Positions 1,738 to 17,672 of a DNA stretch of 64,000 nucleotides are shown one piece after another. A program made the position numbers and the translations under genes. Under the pieces are notes generated by a model. The model worked only from the letters and a program-made list of their open reading frames with translations, did no database searches and was not told the origin of the DNA. Numbering within the stretch: position 1 is the first letter of the stretch; the number at the start of each line of letters is the position of its first letter. This stretch comes from Gammaproteobacteria bacterium. GTDB taxonomy: Bacteria > Pseudomonadota > Gammaproteobacteria > HK1. Location: positions 1 through 64,000 of the forward strand of contig JAJFJT010000025.1 in NCBI GenBank assembly GCA_021773795.1, in the 5' to 3' direction.

Positions 1738-2688
1738 TTGTCAGCAAATAGTGAGTCCGGCTCGGCCTTTGATCTGTCCACTTTTCAGGGGCTGATTCTG
1801 GCGCTGCAAAATTTCTGGGCCAAGCAGGGTTGTGCCTTGCAGCAGCCTCTCGACATGGAGGTGGGTGCGGGCACCTTCCATCCAGCGACTTTTCTGCGTG
1901 CCATCGGTCCAGAGCCCTGGTCCGCGGCCTATGTGCAGCCCTCGCGCCGGCCCACCGACGGACGCTACGGTGAAAACCCCAACCGCCTGCAGCACTATTA
2001 TCAGTATCAGGTGGTGATCAAACCCTCGCCGCTTAACATCCAGGAACTCTATCTGGAGTCACTTCAGACCCTCGGCATCGATCCCCTGGAGCACGATATT
2101 CGCTTCGTGGAAGATAACTGGGAGTCACCGACTCTGGGAGCCTGGGGGCTTGGCTGGGAAATATGGTTGAACGGTATGGAGATCACCCAGTTCACCTATT
2201 TTCAGCAAGTCGGTGGGCTCGAATGTCGTCCGGTGACCGCCGAGATCACCTATGGGCTGGAGCGTATCGCCATGTATCTCCAGGAGGTGGACAGTCTGTT
2301 CGATCTCACTTGGACCGATGGACCGCTGGGACGGGTCAGTTATGGTGATATTTTTCTGCAAAATGAGGCGGAGATGTCGGCCTATAATTTTGAGCACGCC
2401 GATGTGGCGGCCCTGTTTGGCTGGTTCGATAGCTGTGAGGCAGAGAGTACTCGCCTGATCGAGCTGGATCTCCCGCTCCCGGCCTATGAAATGGCACTCA
2501 AGGCTTCGCATACCTTTAATTTACTGGACGCCCGTCAGGCCATTTCGGTAACCGAACGCCAGCGCTACATCCTGCGGGTACGCACCCTTTCCCGGGCAGT
2601 GGCCGCCGCCTATTACCAACGTCGGGAGGCATTGAATTTTCCCATGCTGGCAAATACCGAGACCATGCTTGACGAGGGGGCAGCATGA
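1738..2688 (+). CDS. glyQ: Glycyl-tRNA synthetase alpha subunit
   Basis: Catalytic subunit of the bacterial alpha2-beta2 glycyl-tRNA synthetase, which charges tRNA-Gly with glycine in the cytoplasm. The 316-residue protein contains the signature stretches [36 protein letters not shown] and [19 protein letters not shown], colinear with the E. coli protein. The start is inferred to be TTG at 1738: it is the only usable codon before the conserved [14 protein letters not shown], and the ATG at 1725 is in another frame that stops at once. No strong ribosome-binding site is visible. The stop overlaps the glyS start (ATGA), so the two subunits are translationally coupled. Confidence 0.96.
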
Positions 2689-4766
2689 GCGAGACAGCAG
2701 ATCTGCTGGTAGAAATAGGTACCGAGGAGTTGCCGCCCAAGGCTTTGCGTGGTCTTTCCCTGGCCTTTGCCAATGGCGTGCAGGATGGCCTGAAACAGGC
2801 CGGGCTGGAACATGCCGAGGTCGTCCCCTATGCTACGCCACGCCGGCTGGCGGTGCTGGTTTCGGACTTGGTTGCCGGTCAGGCCGAACGTCAACTGGAG
2901 CGGCGTGGTCCTGCGGTAAAGGTGGCCTTTGATGAACAGGGCGAGCCGACGCGCGCCGCCAGTGGTTTTGCTGCTTCTTGCGGGGTTGAGGTGGAGCAGT
3001 TGGAACGCCAGGAAACCGACCAGGGTAGCTGGCTGGTTTTTCGCAGTACCGAGATGGGGCAAGCCACCACCTCCCTGGTTCCCGCTATCGTGGAAAAGGC
3101 ACTTGCCGATTTGCCGGTCCCCAAACGCATGCGTTGGGGTAGCGGCGAAACGGAGTTTGTACGCCCGGTGCATTGGGTGGTGTTGCTCTACGGTGAGACC
3201 GTGATTGAGGCGGAAATTCTGGGCGTTAGCGCGGGCCGGCAGACCCTTGGCCACCGCTTCCATCACCCCAATGCCATTTCCCTGGAGCAGCCTTCGGCCT
3301 ATGCCCTGCAGCTTTATGGTAGCGCTTATGTGGTCGCCGACTTTGATACCCGCCGTTCCATGGTGCGCAAACAGGCGGAGGCAGCCGCCCAGGAACTCGG
3401 GGGCAAGGCCATCATCAACGATGCCTTACTCGACGAGGTTACCGCCCTGGTGGAGTGGCCGGTGGCCGTCAGTGGTGGTTTTGATGAGGAATACCTGGAA
3501 CTGCCGGACCCGGTACTCATTGCCACTATGCAGGGCAATCAAAAATATTTTCCAGTGGTGGATGAGAGCGGCAAGCTACAGGCCCATTTCATCACCATCA
3601 GCAATATCGAGAGCAGCAATCCGGATGCGGTGCGTTCTGGCAACGAACGGGTTATCCGCCCGCGTTTGAGCGATGCCCAGTTTTTTTACCGTAACGATTT
3701 GCGTCACTCCCTGGAAGAGCGCCTGGAGGGGCTCAAGCAGGTGGTGTTCCAGAAGGATCTGGGTTCATTGTTTGACAAGGCATGTCGGGTCTCGCGCCTG
3801 GCCGCCCATATCGCCATTGCCATGGGAGAGGCACCGGAGGCCGTGGAGTTGGCGAAGCGCGCGGGACGATTATGCAAGTGCGATCTCCTGAGTGAGATGG
3901 TGGGAGAATTCCCCGAGTTACAGGGCACTATGGGGCGTTATTACGCCATTGCTGGTGGTGAGCCCGAGGCGGTTGCGCTGGCGCTCGAAGCGTCCTATGC
4001 ACCACGCTTTGCCGGTGCCGCCGTTCCGGTTAGCGCCACCAGCCAGGCGGTTGCCATGGCCGACAAGCTGGACACCCTGGTGGGTATATTTGGTATCGGC
4101 CAGATTCCCAGTGGTGCCAAGGATCCCTTTGCCCTGCGCCGGGCGGCGCTGGGGGTGTTGCGCATCATGATAGAGGGTCAACTCAACCTTGACCTGCCAA
4201 AGCTGTTGGATGCGGCGGTAGCGGAATATCCGGAGGCCATTGATGGAGCGGTGGTGGAACCCGTTTTCACCTTCATGAATGAGCGCCTGCGGGCCTATTT
4301 CCTTGAGCGTGGCATCCTGCCTGATGTCTTTGAGGCGGTGCAGGCCCGTCACCCGGAACGGCCCTATGATTTCGCTCGGCGGGTACAAGCGGTGGAGGCC
4401 TTTCGCAAGTTGCCAGAGGGCGAGGCCTTGTCAGCGGCGAATAAGCGTATTGGCAATATACTTAAAAAAGCTGACGGAGAACGGGCAGAACAGGTGGATG
4501 ATGCCCTGTTTGGCGAGGATGCAGAGTGGAACCTTGCGGCCAAATTGATAGGGCTCACTCCACAGGTGAAAAAGCTGCTGCAGACCGGTGATTATAGTGG
4601 CGCGCTGACGCGTCTCGCCAGCTTGCGAGAGGCGGTAGATGACTTTTTTGATCACGTCCAGGTGATGGCAGAGAATCCGGCAGTCCAGCAAAATAGGCTG
4701 GCCATGCTGAACAATATCCACGGACTTTTCTTACAGACTGCAGATATATCGCGTCTTCAGTTCTAG
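2685..4766 (+). CDS. glyS: Glycyl-tRNA synthetase beta subunit
   Basis: Beta subunit of the tetrameric glycyl-tRNA synthetase; it contributes tRNA recognition and is needed for aminoacylation. At 693 residues it matches the usual family length. It starts [21 protein letters not shown], the standard N-terminus, and carries QGNQKYFPV and the [14 protein letters not shown] stretch in its centre. The C-terminal third has the helical anticodon-binding-like region ([15 protein letters not shown] onward). It overlaps glyQ by 4 nt. The tRNA-Gly(CCC) at 46485 in this window is one of its substrates. Confidence 0.97.
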
Positions 4767-4824: not shown

Positions 4825-5376
4825 ATGCAATTGGTGATACTGGGGCGGGATGGTGTTATTAGCCGGCGAGGCATCCGTCCGCGCACGCCTGAGCAATGGG
4901 AGGCCCTGCCGGGTGCTCTGGACGCCATTGCGCGGTTGAATCATGCGGGCTTTAGGGTGGTGGTGGCTACCAATCAGCCGCGGCTGGCACAGCCGGGATT
5001 TGATATCGAGGATCTCAACCGCATCCACGCCAAACTGTATCGACAGTTGGTGGAGAAGGGTGGCCATATCGACGCCTTTTTCTTTTGCCCTCACGATGAG
5101 AAAGCGCGCTGCGATTGCCGCAAGCCGCGTCCTGGGTTACTCCATCAGATCAGTGCCCGATTGCGGATGAGTGTCGAAGGGGTCCCCATGGTGGGTTGTT
5201 ATCTGGGAGATATCCAGGCGGCACGGGCCGCAGGGGCGCAACCGGTGTATCTGCATTCCAACGGTGGACGCGATTTGAGCAAGGAGCACCTGGAAGGCGT
5301 AGAGGTATTTGATGATTTGCCAAGCTTTGCCGATGCCCTCATTGCCAGGCAGGTTCCGGTGGAGGAAGCGCTTTAG
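4825..5376 (+). CDS. GmhB-like HAD phosphatase with altered catalytic residues
   Basis: By sequence this is a GmhB homologue. GmhB is D-glycero-D-manno-heptose 1,7-bisphosphate 7-phosphatase, which removes a phosphate in ADP-heptose synthesis for LPS core. The 183 residues keep the family length, the Zn site (CPHDEKARCDCRKPRPG, residues 88-103) and the second Asp of HAD motif I (D9). The nucleophile, normally the first Asp of the DRDG motif, is Gly7 (ILGRDG), and the Mg-binding Asp of motif IV (usually VGD) is Cys125 (MVGCYLGD). NQS is NQP. By known HAD chemistry such a protein should not form the phospho-aspartyl intermediate. It sits between glyS and plsC, the usual place for gmhB. It may be a non-catalytic relic or have another role. 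Its TAG stop overlaps the target site of a MITE. Confidence 0.8.
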   Translation: MQLVILGRDGVISRRGIRPRTPEQWEALPGALDAIARLNHAGFRVVVATNQPRLAQPGFDIEDLNRIHAKLYRQLVEKGGHIDAFFFCPHDEKARCDCRKPRPGLLHQISARLRMSVEGVPMVGCYLGDIQAARAAGAQPVYLHSNGGRDLSKEHLEGVEVFDDLPSFADALIARQVPVEEAL

Positions 5377-5535
5377 GAGCCTGTCTGATTCAGGACTGCC
5401 CTACTGCGGAAAAGCCCTATTGGCTCTATTTTCTGGTCCTTTTCGTCTAATAGAGTGACTATTATCCTCAAACGACCAAAAAAGCTGTCTCAATACAGTT
5501 TTCCCTCGCTACGGGCGCCCAAATCAGACAGGCTC
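5377..5535. mobile_element. MITE with perfect terminal inverted repeats (IS5-like)
   Basis: A 159-bp non-coding element. Its ends GAGCCTGTCTGATT and AATCAGACAGGCTC are perfect inverted repeats, which extend to 17 bp when the flanking TAG/CTA is included. It is flanked by TTAG and CTAG, consistent with a 4-bp YTAR target typical of IS5-family insertions. The centre has an AATAG-N5-CTATT hairpin also seen in the larger MITE family at 23934, 25761 and 55249. No transposase is encoded. It separates the gmhB-like gene from plsC. Confidence 0.75.
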
Positions 5536-5543
5536 CTAGCAGC

Positions 5544-6266
5544 ATGGTAATTCTACGATCGTTGCTATTTGCCCTGGGACAGGTAGCTTCCACCATATTG
5601 GTTGCGACCCTCGGTTTACTCACCCTGCCTTTTCCCTATCATATCCGCTATCGCTGTATCACCTTATGGACCCACTTTAATCTCTGGTGGCTGGAAAAGA
5701 GCTGCGGTCTTCGCTGCGAGATAGAGGGCCTGGAGCACGTGCCGTCGCAGCCAACCATCGTCTTCTCGCGGCATGAGTCGGCTTGGGAGACACTGGCCTT
5801 GCAGAAGGTATTCAATCCCCAGGTCTGGGTGCTCAAACGCGAAATACTCTGGCTGCCCTTCTTCGGCTGGGCCATCGCCATGCTAAAACCCATTGCCATC
5901 AATCGTTCCAACGCCCGGCGTGCCCTGATTCAGCTCAAGGAGCAGGGTCGGCAGCGCCTTGAGGCCGGCTGCTGGGTGGTGATTTTCCCCGAGGGTACCC
6001 GCATGGCTCCAGGGCATCGCCGGCGCTATGGGCGTGGCGGTGCAGCGCTGGCCGAAGAGACGGGCTATCCGGTAGTGCCTGTGGCTCATAATGCGGGTGA
6101 TTACTGGCCGCGCAAGAGTTTTCTGAAATTTCCCGGAACCATCCGTATGGTGGTGGGGCCGCGGATCGAGAGCAAGGGTCGGAGTGCAGCGGAGATCAAT
6201 GCCCTTGCCGAGCAGTGGATTGAGGCGATGGTGGCGCGCCTACGCAAAATCCCTTCGAATAGCTAG
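5544..6266 (+). CDS. 1-acyl-sn-glycerol-3-phosphate acyltransferase (PlsC family)
   Basis: Inner-membrane acyltransferase that transfers an acyl chain to lysophosphatidic acid to form phosphatidic acid for phospholipid synthesis. The 240-residue protein has an N-terminal hydrophobic segment (about residues 5-30). The catalytic block is RHESAWE with His77 and Glu82; the HX4E variant is common in this subgroup, where classic PlsC has HX4D. FPEGTR lies at 148-153 and PVVPVAHNAG further on. These are the standard motifs in the standard order. It is the last gene of the glyQS-gmhB-plsC group. The start is ATG 9 nt after the end of the upstream MITE, so the insertion has replaced its leader. Confidence 0.9.
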   Translation: MVILRSLLFALGQVASTILVATLGLLTLPFPYHIRYRCITLWTHFNLWWLEKSCGLRCEIEGLEHVPSQPTIVFSRHESAWETLALQKVFNPQVWVLKREILWLPFFGWAIAMLKPIAINRSNARRALIQLKEQGRQRLEAGCWVVIFPEGTRMAPGHRRRYGRGGAALAEETGYPVVPVAHNAGDYWPRKSFLKFPGTIRMVVGPRIESKGRSAAEINALAEQWIEAMVARLRKIPSNS

Positions 6267-8091: not shown

Positions 8092-9153
8092 TTAGCCAAA
8101 ATTGATCTTGGCTTCCAGGTTGGTACGGGAATCGGCATTGGACAGGGCCTCCTCCAAATTGATTCTCCCCTCTTTGTATAGCTGGTGGAGTGCCGCGTCG
8201 AAGGTCTGCATGCCTGGGGTGCCGCTGGCCTCCATGGCCTCCTTGATGGCATCAATTTCTCCCTTGAGGATAAGCTCCGAAATGTGCGGGGTATTGACGA
8301 GTACCTCAATGGCGGCACAGCGCTTGCCGTGCACATCCTTTACCAGACGCTGGGAGATCACCGCGCAGAGATTTAGCGCGAGGTCCATAAATAGCTGGCG
8401 GTGCAGCGTCTGGGGAAACATGTTGATGACCCGTTCCATGGTCTGATTGGCATTATTGGCGTGCAGGGTCGAGATCGCGAGGTGTCCCGTGTTGCATAGT
8501 TCCAGTGCTGCCTCCATGGTTTCCCGGCCACGAATTTCACCGATAAGAATGACATCCGGCGCCTCACGCAGGGAGGCCCGCAGGGCATTCTCGTAGCATG
8601 CCGTGTCGACCCCGATTTCACGCTGGTTGATGATGGATTTCTGATTGGGGTGATAGAACTCAATGGGGTCTTCGATGGTAAGGATATGCCCCGCCATCGT
8701 GCTGTTACGATGATCGATCATGGCTGCCAGGGTGGTCGATTTACCTGAGCCCGTTGCGCCTACCATGAGGATCAATCCACGCTTTCGGGCTATAAGATCC
8801 TTGAGGATAAGCGGCAGACCCAGCTCTTCGATACTGGGAATTTTCGAGGGGATCAGACGCAGCACCATGGCGACCTCGCCGCGCTGGCGAAACACATTGA
8901 CCCGGAAACGGGCACTGCCATCGTCCAGGGCGATGGCAAAATCGCTCTCCATCTCCTGTTCGAAGGTCGTGACCTGAAGCTCGTTCATGATCCCGTAGGC
9001 CGCGGCCTTTACCAGCTCTCCGGTAAGTTGGCTTTTGCCCACCGAGGTAAGGGTGCCCTCAAGCTTAATCTTTACTGGAGCGCCCGCGGTAAAAAACAGG
9101 TCTGAGGCGTTTTTGTCCTGCATCAATTTGAGGTAGGGGGTTATATCCATCAC
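8092..9153 (-). CDS. PilT/PilU-family twitching motility ATPase (third copy)
   Basis: Hexameric ATPase of the type IV pilus retraction family; hydrolysis drives pilin disassembly at the inner membrane. The 353 residues hold a PAS-like N-terminal domain (DASDLFF-type motif NASDLFFTAGAP), Walker A GATGSGKST, Walker B region DVILIGEIRGRETM and the His box TGHLAISTLHANN. It is closer to PilU than PilT: it has HANNANQTMERVINMFP and lacks PilT's AIRNLIRE motif, here NTPHISELILKGE. It is downstream of and in line with pilU and pilT. Having three such genes in a row is unusual. Start ATG 9153 or the adjacent ATG 9150. Confidence 0.88.
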   Translation of the reverse strand: MMDITPYLKLMQDKNASDLFFTAGAPVKIKLEGTLTSVGKSQLTGELVKAAAYGIMNELQVTTFEQEMESDFAIALDDGSARFRVNVFRQRGEVAMVLRLIPSKIPSIEELGLPLILKDLIARKRGLILMVGATGSGKSTTLAAMIDHRNSTMAGHILTIEDPIEFYHPNQKSIINQREIGVDTACYENALRASLREAPDVILIGEIRGRETMEAALELCNTGHLAISTLHANNANQTMERVINMFPQTLHRQLFMDLALNLCAVISQRLVKDVHGKRCAAIEVLVNTPHISELILKGEIDAIKEAMEASGTPGMQTFDAALHQLYKEGRINLEEALSNADSRTNLEAKINFG

Positions 9154-9190
9154 TTATTCCTGTCCGAGTCTGGTCCAGCTTGCGGGTCAA

Positions 9191-10363
9191 TCAGCGCAGC
9201 AAGCCGCCTGATTGCTCATCGTCACCTTCTTCCATAGAGAGGTGTTCAAGGCCATCCAGCGCACCTTTATCCCTGGCCGCCTTGCCTTCGAGCTTGATCC
9301 GTAGTCGTAGCTCATTCATGGAATCGGCGTTGCGCATGGCATCGTCAAAGCTGATCTTGTCATCCTCATAGAGATCAAAGAGGGCCTGGTCAAAGGTCTT
9401 CATCCCGAGTTCATTGGATTTCTGCATAATGGGCTTGATCTCGTGCAGGTCACCCTTGAGGATGAGATCCTTGATCAGCGGTGAGTTCAGTAGAATCTCA
9501 ATAGCCGCAACACGGCCCTTGCCGTCTTTAGTTTTGAGCAGGCGCTGGGAAATGATGCAGCGCAGATTGGCCGATAGATCCATGAGCAGTTGCTGTTTGC
9601 GCTCCTCCGGGAAAAAATTAATGACCCGATCCAGCGCCTGATTGGCATTGTTGGCGTGTAAGGTGGCGAGCGCCAGATGGCCTGTTTCGGCGAACTGAAT
9701 GCCATAGCCCATGGTTTCGCGGTCACGAATCTCGCCGAGCATAATCACGTCCGGGGCCTGACGCAGGGTGTTCTTGAGCGCAATGCCCCAATCCTCGGTA
9801 TCCACCCCCACCTCGCGTTGCATGATGATGCAGCCCTTGTGGGAATGGACATACTCAATGGGGTCCTCAATGGTAATGATGTGGCCCTTGGAATTCTCGT
9901 TACGGTAATCAACCATGGCCGCGAGGCTGGTGGATTTACCGGAACCCGTGCCGCCAACCATGATTACCAGGCCGTTCTTGGCCATGACCACATCTTTTAG
10001 CACCTCAGGCAGCCCCAATTGGTCGATATTAGGGATGTCAGTGGTGATGGTACGCATCACCAGCCCGGCAGAACCCTGCTGAATGAAGGCGTTGCAGCGA
10101 AAGCGCCCTACCCCGGGTGGTGCCACTGCAAAATTACACTCCTTGGTGGCATCAAACTCCTTGAGCTGGCGGTCGTTCATGATCGCGTAGGTCAGCGCCT
10201 GGGCATTCTCGGCGCTCAGTGCCTGTTTGGAGACCGGGGTAATTTTTCCGTCCACCTTGATAGCCGGTGGAAAACCGGTGGTGATAAACAGATCCGAGCC
10301 ATCCTTCTTAATCATCAGTTTAAGAAGGTCCAGCATGAATTTTATTGCTTGCTCTCGTTCCAT
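9191..10363 (-). CDS. pilU: Type IV pilus retraction ATPase PilU
   Basis: PilT-dependent retraction ATPase that adds force to pilus retraction. The 390-residue protein starts MEREQAIKFMLDLLKLM, typical of PilU, and has Walker A GGTGSGKSTSLAAMV, Walker B VIMLGEIRDRETM and His box TGHLALATLHANN. The acidic C-terminal tail (LEHLSMEEGDDEQSGGLLR) is outside the motor core. It follows pilT by 26 nt on the same strand, so the genes are almost certainly cotranscribed. Confidence 0.93.
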   Translation of the reverse strand: MEREQAIKFMLDLLKLMIKKDGSDLFITTGFPPAIKVDGKITPVSKQALSAENAQALTYAIMNDRQLKEFDATKECNFAVAPPGVGRFRCNAFIQQGSAGLVMRTITTDIPNIDQLGLPEVLKDVVMAKNGLVIMVGGTGSGKSTSLAAMVDYRNENSKGHIITIEDPIEYVHSHKGCIIMQREVGVDTEDWGIALKNTLRQAPDVIMLGEIRDRETMGYGIQFAETGHLALATLHANNANQALDRVINFFPEERKQQLLMDLSANLRCIISQRLLKTKDGKGRVAAIEILLNSPLIKDLILKGDLHEIKPIMQKSNELGMKTFDQALFDLYEDDKISFDDAMRNADSMNELRLRIKLEGKAARDKGALDGLEHLSMEEGDDEQSGGLLR

Positions 10364-10389
10364 GGTCCCGCTCCCGGAAATACTGCTTG

Positions 10390-11427
10390 CTACTGGATGG
10401 AATCCTTATTGGCGGCCTTGGAGGCGGCCTCCTTGCGTGATACCTGGTTTTCGTTGACCAGCCGTTGCAAATCCTGATCCAGGGTCTTCATGCCGTGGGC
10501 CTGTCCAGTCTGGATGGCGGAGTACATCTGTGCAATCTTGGCTTCGCGGATGAGGTTCCGGATAGCGGGGGTGCCCATCATGATCTCGTGAGCCGCTATC
10601 CGGCCACCGCCATTTTTCTTTAGCAGGGTCTGGGAGATAACCGCGCGCAGAGATTCTGACAGCATGGCGCGGATCATGTCCTTTTCCGCCGCGGGGAAGA
10701 CATCGACGATACGGTCGATGGTCTTGGCTGCCGAGCTGGTATGCAGGGTGCCAAATACCAGGTGGCCGGTTTCCGCCGCGGTGAGCGCCAGACGGATGGT
10801 CTCCAAATCCCGTAATTCGCCCACCAGGATGACGTCGGGGTCCTCTCGGAGCGCGGAGCGCAGGGCCTCATTAAAGCCCAGGGTATCGCGGTGCACCTCG
10901 CGCTGGTTGATGAGGCATTTGTTGCTGGTGTGGACGAACTCAATGGGATCCTCGACGGTGAGAATATGGCCGTATTCCGTTTTGTTCTTGTGATCGACCA
11001 TGGCCGCCAGAGTCGTGGACTTGCCTGAGCCCGTGGGCCCGGTGACCAGCACCACGCCGCGGGGAAAGTCCGCGATATCTTTAAAGATCGGCGGGCATTT
11101 GAGATCATCAAGGCTGAGTATTTCCGAAGGGATGGTACGGAACACCGCGCCAGAACCGCGTTGATGATTAAAGGCGTTGACCCGAAAGCGTGCAAGGCCC
11201 GGGATCTCGAAGCTGAAATCGGTTTCGAGAAATTCCTCGTAATCCTTGCGCTGCTTGTCGTTCATGATGTCGTAGACCAGATCGTGCACGGTCTTGTGAT
11301 CCAGCGCCGGCAGGTTGATCCGGCGTACATCGCCATCGACCCGAATCATCGGCGGCAGGCCTGCTGAAAGGTGGAGATCCGAGCAGCCGTTTTTTACCCC
11401 GAACGCAAGCAGTTCACCAATATCCAT
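10390..11427 (-). CDS. pilT: Type IV pilus retraction ATPase PilT
   Basis: Main retraction motor of type IV pili. The 345 residues match PilT end to end: MDIGELLAFGVKNGCSDLHLSAG, Walker A GPTGSGKST, Asp box HILTVEDPIEFVH, Walker B DVILVGELRDLETI, His box TGHLVFGTLHTSSA, and the PilT-specific AIRNLIREAKI helix near the C-terminus. It is the first gene of the pilT-pilU-pilU-like operon and is divergent from yggS, a pairing seen in many gammaproteobacteria. The shared 117-nt gap should hold both promoters. Confidence 0.96.
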   Translation of the reverse strand: MDIGELLAFGVKNGCSDLHLSAGLPPMIRVDGDVRRINLPALDHKTVHDLVYDIMNDKQRKDYEEFLETDFSFEIPGLARFRVNAFNHQRGSGAVFRTIPSEILSLDDLKCPPIFKDIADFPRGVVLVTGPTGSGKSTTLAAMVDHKNKTEYGHILTVEDPIEFVHTSNKCLINQREVHRDTLGFNEALRSALREDPDVILVGELRDLETIRLALTAAETGHLVFGTLHTSSAAKTIDRIVDVFPAAEKDMIRAMLSESLRAVISQTLLKKNGGGRIAAHEIMMGTPAIRNLIREAKIAQMYSAIQTGQAHGMKTLDQDLQRLVNENQVSRKEAASKAANKDSIQ

Positions 11428-17012: not shown

Positions 17013-17672
17013 GTGCACGACTACCAACAACAATTCATTGCCTTCTCCCGCGCCAAAGGCGTGCTGCGCTTTGGAGAGTTTCAGCTAAAATCAGGTCGTT
17101 TGAGTCCCTATTTTTTCAATAGTGGGGCCTTCAATAGCGGTGATAGCCTGGCTCGTCTCGGGCGCTATTATGCCGCCGCCCTGCACCAGTCGGGGCTGGA
17201 ATTCGACATGCTCTATGGGCCGGCGTACAAGGGCATACCGCTGGTTTGTGCCGTGGCCATCGCCTATGCACAAGAATATGACCGTGACCTTCCCTATGCC
17301 TTCAACCGCAAGGAAGCCAAGGATCATGGCGAGGGCGGGTCCCTGGTTGGGGCGCCGCTTGAGAGGAAGGTGGTGATCGTGGATGACGTCGTATCCGCCG
17401 GCACCTCGGTACGGGAGTCCATTGAACTCATTGGCGCTGCCGGGGCCAAGCCGGTGGGCGTGGCCGTTTCGCTGGATCGTCAAGAGCGTGGCAAGGGTGA
17501 AAGCTCAGCGATTATGGAACTCGAACAGGTATTTGGCCTCACCGTGGCGCCCATCATTACCCTGAAACAGATTATTGAAAGTGTTGCCGGGGAGTCACAA
17601 GACGCACTGTTGTTAAAGCGTATTAAGGACTACCAGCAGCGTTATGGTGTGGAGAAGAGTGAGATGCGATAA
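17013..17672 (+). CDS. pyrE: Orotate phosphoribosyltransferase
   Basis: Converts orotate and PRPP to orotidine monophosphate in pyrimidine synthesis. The 219-residue protein has the N-terminal LRFGEFQLKSGRLSPYFFN stretch, the KEAKDHGEGG loop and the PRPP motif KVVIVDDVVSAGTSVRES. The frame is open much further upstream, but the family N-terminus fixes the start at GTG 17013 (VHDYQQQFIAFS). E. coli PyrE has 213 residues. The gap to xth is 115 nt and should contain both promoters. Confidence 0.95.
   Translation: MHDYQQQFIAFSRAKGVLRFGEFQLKSGRLSPYFFNSGAFNSGDSLARLGRYYAAALHQSGLEFDMLYGPAYKGIPLVCAVAIAYAQEYDRDLPYAFNRKEAKDHGEGGSLVGAPLERKVVIVDDVVSAGTSVRESIELIGAAGAKPVGVAVSLDRQERGKGESSAIMELEQVFGLTVAPIITLKQIIESVAGESQDALLLKRIKDYQQRYGVEKSEMR

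Follow-up and report, generated by a model that had tools for sequence, protein, structure and literature searches.

A GmhB-derived protein that lacks its catalytic aspartates is probably retained as a pseudoenzyme in a gammaproteobacterial genus without heptose genes

Analysis of a 64,000-nucleotide stretch of gammaproteobacterial DNA (the window) revealed a gene derived from gmhB (4825–5376, plus strand) whose product is catalytically dead by motif and is still held by purifying selection in a genome without the heptose pathway. The protein is a homologue of an enzyme family with catalytic residues missing, and selection was maintained after their loss, the two attributes by which a pseudoenzyme is recognised. 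We consider it probable that this is a true pseudoenzyme, with a non-catalytic role that followed loss of the heptose pathway.

Sequence, fold and relatives of the gmhB-derived protein

The open reading frame encodes a protein of 183 amino acids, MQLVILGRDGVISRRG...CPHDEKARCDCRKPRPG...MVGCYLGDIQAA, which is matched by both the GmhB profile and the GmhB fold, the match to GmhB spanning its entire length. In HAD phosphatases, GmhB included, the first Asp of motif I is both nucleophile and Mg ligand, and the Asp of motif IV is a Mg ligand. A preliminary description of this DNA had reported both to be replaced, and translation, codon reading and alignment bear this out: codon 7 (4843–4845) is GGG, giving Gly and a motif I of GRDG for DRDG, and codon 125 (5197–5199) is TGT, giving Cys at the position of the Mg-ligand Asp in a motif IV of GCYLGD. 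The same description placed GGG two changes from an Asp codon, which holds for the gene analysed here but not for that of the sister species G002, whose GGT differs from GAT by a single nucleotide. With neither of these Asp residues present, heptose bisphosphatase activity of the protein is, judging from its sequence, very unlikely.

Other parts of the active site are preserved. As previously described, the zinc loop is intact (C88-P-H90...C96-D-C98, 5086–5118), as are the fold residues, with T49-N50-Q51 of motif II and the motif III Lys of R99-K100 (5119–5124) kept. Two changes that had been overlooked are common to three species of the genus. One is the conversion of the N-x-D-S-x loop after motif I to S-R-R-G-I-R with a one-residue deletion, so that an Arg-rich loop, SRRGIRPR (4861–4884), here replaces N-x-D-S-D; the net charge of residues 5–20 is +4, compared to −1 to −2 in intact relatives. 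The other is the replacement of Ser by Pro after motif II, which changes TNQS to TNQP (4969–4980).

The AlphaFold2 model of the protein (mean pLDDT 87.6) superposed on GmhB 3l8h with a Z score of 28.1 and an rmsd of 1.4 Å over 176 residues, and the best solved relatives were the GmhBs 4pnh, 3l8h and 2gmw; the predicted fold is thus that of GmhB, of the HAD type with a zinc loop. Scores against the curated GmhB model NF006506, which has a cut-off of 178 bits, were 163 bits here and 165 and 168 bits in the sister species, all below the cut-off. Among the family members scanned, intact proteins scored 200–232 bits and degenerate ones 144–172 bits, so that the cut-off splits the two states. Features expected of a GmhB that were not found are the nucleophile Asp of the DxD signature, the motif IV Asp, a curated score above the cut-off and a genome context of heptose genes.

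The genus is represented by two more species, G001 and G002, in which the gene occupies the same place, between glyS and plsC. Both carry GRDG, with motif IV reading GC and GS, respectively, so that across the genus the motif IV residue is Cys in two species and Ser in one. Thus, the replacement is not a lone variation among close relatives with a normal motif: DRDG is absent within the genus (three species) and occurs in more distant members of the family. Protein identity among the three species is 83–89% for gmhB and 87–90% for WaaA.

Selection on the gene and its neighbourhood

Maximum likelihood estimates of dN/dS for gmhB in the three genus pairs were 0.110, 0.086 and 0.129, and dN/dS = 1 was rejected for every pair (2ΔlnL of 76.7, 116.7 and 82.7). 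For comparison, the medians for genes of the window were 0.078 and 0.091 (38 and 42 genes), and WaaA gave 0.08–0.11 in the genus. No break in the reading frame occurs in any of the three species, at a synonymous divergence of about 0.5–1.1 per site, and, because the nucleophile loss is common to all three, this constraint acted after that loss. Changes were also unevenly placed among the three species: in four active-site loops, whose limits were drawn by hand on the alignment prior to counting, 3 positions out of 66 vary, and in the rest of the protein 32 out of 117 (Fisher P = 7e-5; leaving out the C-terminal tail raises it to 0.004). Conservation of the loops may mean no more than a conserved fold. 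Elsewhere in the window, an open reading frame at 17094–17483 showed dN/dS above 1 (2.0 and 2.9) against its best match in the two sister species and is most likely not a real gene in that frame.

Upstream of gmhB on the plus strand lie glyS (2685–4766), its direct neighbour, and, in conserved synteny, glyQ (1738–2688), presumably encoding the beta and alpha chains of glycyl-tRNA synthetase; downstream is what we take to be a plsC-type acyltransferase gene (5544–6266, plus strand). These names are assumed from sequence resemblance and, for glyQ, also from position. The neighbours give no hint of function, because most intact gmhB genes also lie between glyS and plsC and the arrangement is an old common synteny that does not identify a partner. 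An M23-type peptidase gene adjoins gmhB in G008, G009 and G012, and in G002 only, an extra amidohydrolase-like gene (L067, 5700–6955) lies between glyS and gmhB, behind another repeat-like stretch. Further along the window, three PilT/PilU-type ATPase genes occur in a row (8092–11427, minus strand), an arrangement conserved in the genus.

Between gmhB and plsC is a MITE-like element (5377–5535, or 5374–5538 counted from the gmhB stop codon), which is absent at the same place in G001 and G002. It starts at the gmhB stop codon and has perfect terminal inverted repeats, TAGGAGCCTGTCTGATT ... AATCAGACAGGCTCCTA; each end carries TA, which would be consistent with target duplication of the IS630 type. 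A copy at 87%, 119 bases long, is present at another site in the genome (L041), and G001 carries a piece of 60 bases.

The heptose pathway and the fate of gmhB

Searches of the genome (2.56 Mb, 99.3% complete, a draft in 36 contigs; genomes of the genus are small, at 2.5 Mb) were carried out as the preliminary description had suggested. They revealed no second GmhB, the gene being present as a single copy, and no credible homologue of GmhA, HldE or HldD, whose curated models had no match near their cut-offs across the whole genome. The possibility that a remnant pathway lay under the weak matches was rejected, these being KdsD, ribokinase-type kinases, GalE and dTDP-glucose dehydratase-like proteins. 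The heptosyltransferase family PF01075 (Glyco_transf_9) was likewise absent from the genome. The earlier suggestion that another phosphatase serves LPS heptose synthesis in this organism is therefore unsupported, because the genome has no heptose pathway to serve. LpxC, WaaA and KdsD are present, and loss of the whole LPS was dismissed since LpxC and WaaA were found in all 17 family members examined. This gene content suggests an LPS of lipid A and Kdo that lacks heptose.

Within the family sample of 17 genomes, heptose genes together with intact GmhB motifs were found in three, G006, G007 and G008; in G007, which is 81% complete, GmhA and heptosyltransferases were present and HldE was missing. 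The pathway is absent from the remaining 14, with neither HldE nor GmhA at a credible score, and PF01075 is missing from 12 of them, G013 and G015 each having one weaker member. In these 14 genomes, gmhB is absent from six, has lost the motif IV Asp in seven (including the three of the genus) and retains intact motifs in one (G013); in G003, G004, G011 and G014, gmhB has been dropped and glyS and plsC adjoin. The LpxC and WaaA tree gave three changes for loss of the heptose pathway and did not reject a single clade (p-AU 0.26), so that, on these sequences, the pathway may have been lost once or up to three times in the family. Three LpxC matches per genome were observed in G009 and G012 (one of them partial in G009), both of which lack the heptose pathway.

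GmhB identity was 62% for G009 and G012 and 63–68% for G013, G015 and G016, in genomes where WaaA identity was 82–86% and LpxC identity 93–95%. Expressed as protein divergence relative to WaaA, the dead GmhBs diverged about twice as much in other heptose-less lineages of the family, compared to about 1.1 to 1.4 times in the genus. We rejected strong relaxation of the dead GmhBs of the family, because the dN/dS of 0.22–0.38 obtained by counting was overstated; the codon model gave 0.10–0.14 for G013, G015 and G016, and was saturated for G009 and G012, giving no estimate. With values of 0.10–0.14 elsewhere in the family, the contrast with the genus is one of degree. Part of the constraint in G013, G015 and G016 may predate the losses, because the catalytic residues lost differ between G015 and G016 and none is lost in G013.

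Comparison with 99 GmhB homologues from other gammaproteobacterial families showed that the first Asp is kept in 97 (in one of these read from an unaligned end, as DRDG), the other two having Gly and Ala, and that the motif IV Asp is also kept in 97 of the 99. Some loss of catalytic residues occurred in four genomes of these families, namely G059, G074, G111 and G129. The degenerate GmhBs of the first three were L198 (AIDG, with CRMP and VVS), L167 (CRLP, with ADKLRA) and L174 (GN at motif IV), respectively. The GmhB of G129 (L139, 1501–2050) has GRDGVINRRP and NQP together with an intact motif IV GD and scores 207 bits, above the GmhB cut-off; its stop codon overlaps the plsC start. Gene trees place it apart from the GRDG proteins of the genus with support that is not strong, and a single clade is not rejected (p-AU 0.24). 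The occurrence of GRDG in another family hints, at the level of sequence, at recurrence of such a change.

A non-catalytic role, its alternatives and known systems

We propose that the lineage of the genus lost the ADP-heptose pathway, with the heptose-less LPS predicted from its gene content, and that GmhB, released from the pathway, then lost two Mg ligands, the Asp of motif IV and the one that serves as nucleophile. By established HAD chemistry, no aspartyl-phosphate intermediate should be possible without these residues. The fold, the zinc loop and the residues on the phosphate side (Thr of motif II, Lys of motif III and Arg99) would have been kept while the loop next to the site changed from acidic to arginine-rich, and the gene would then have been held by purifying selection of a strength statistically similar to that acting on neighbouring genes. 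Such selection on a dead protein implies that it still serves some purpose in which the original catalysis has no part. Its putative role is most likely Mg-free binding of a phosphorylated or other anionic ligand, or binding of a protein partner, potentially as a regulator or scaffold; the choice of Mg-free anionic ligand binding is our guess. The preliminary description had offered recruitment for another job as its second possibility, and this gains indirect support from the purifying selection and from substitutions that spare the loops, with the job itself only putative. We found no literature on inactive GmhB. Ap4A was set aside as a candidate ligand, the presence of Escherichia coli GmhB on one Ap4A pull-down list (PMC10657157) being too weak a lead.

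Retention of the phosphate-side machinery could also mean that the protein is still an enzyme, in which D9, Lys100, Thr49 and the Arg-rich loop act on a new substrate, hydrolysing it or converting it in some other way through non-standard chemistry. D9, T49, N50, K100 and D129 are kept in conserved loops, and selection on the gene is strong, as this would predict. We nevertheless regard it as unlikely, given that both Mg-binding carboxylates are gone, the nucleophile among them, that variation between Cys and Ser at motif IV within the genus argues against a new catalytic role for that residue, and that, to our knowledge, no HAD phosphatase works without the first Asp. There is similarly little probability that the gene is a relic of the lost pathway, decaying slowly, with a frame left open by chance in three species. 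Heptose loss does coincide with GmhB decay or loss across the family, and the faster protein divergence in G009 and G012 and in G015 and G016 partially fits such decay; in the genus, however, a dN/dS of 0.09–0.13 at the synonymous divergence given above, a frame open in three of three species and changes that spare the old active-site loops are not what decay would leave.

Selection might instead act on translation coupling to plsC, which follows gmhB almost directly in G001 and G002, or it might act against an expressed relic that misfolds and becomes toxic. Both have a very small chance of being correct: an insertion of about 160 bp parts gmhB from plsC here and the constraint persists, other lineages of the family have dropped gmhB, leaving glyS and plsC adjacent, and avoidance of misfolding gives no reason for the former active-site loops in particular to be spared. 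Finally, a sequencing or assembly error, or a point variant of a single strain, might be suspected in a draft assembly of 36 contigs but is refuted by the presence of the change in two further species.

If it is a pseudoenzyme, the protein is a clear-cut example of a pathway enzyme left orphaned: pathway and catalytic residues have both disappeared, and selection continues to preserve it. GmhB would then have, or be able to acquire, a role beyond removing a heptose phosphate. It also indicates that an annotation of GmhB as present does not imply heptose in the LPS. Intact, decayed, deleted and apparently re-used GmhB copies occur together in the family, which thereby provides a natural experiment. 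A broader and rather doubtful extension is that GmhB has turned more than once in the Gammaproteobacteria, in this genus and in the family of G129, into a pseudophosphatase with GRDG, an Arg-rich loop and NQP that, independently of Mg, binds an anionic ligand and has a regulatory role outside heptose synthesis.

A Kdo inner core without heptose, here read solely from gene content, would match that of Legionella pneumophila, whose heptose-less LPS is known from chemistry (PMC7867332). Compared to GmhB itself, the 7-phosphatase of D-glycero-D-manno-heptose 1,7-bisphosphate (3l8h, 4pnh and 2gmw; NF006506), the protein shares the fold, length, zinc loop, motifs II and III and the glyS-gmhB-plsC position, and differs in its missing nucleophile Asp, motif IV Asp and heptose pathway, its Arg-rich loop and its sub-cut-off score. 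At least one catalytic residue has also been lost in G009, G012, G015 and G016 of the same family and in G059, G074 and G111 of other families, and in the first four the heptose pathway is absent, as it is here. In contrast to the genus, most of these degenerate GmhBs keep the first Asp and several lose the motif III Lys, and those of G009, G012, G015 and G016 diverge faster relative to LpxC and WaaA. The GmhB of G129 shares GRDGVIN-RR, NQP and the position between glyS and plsC, and differs in its retained motif IV GD and its score of 207 bits. A further parallel is Tim50, a HAD-fold pseudophosphatase that lacks the catalytic aspartates and has a binding role; it belongs to another subfamily, is eukaryotic and has an unrelated role, and it resembles the protein described here in having the HAD fold without those aspartates, an analogy that offers only a lead.
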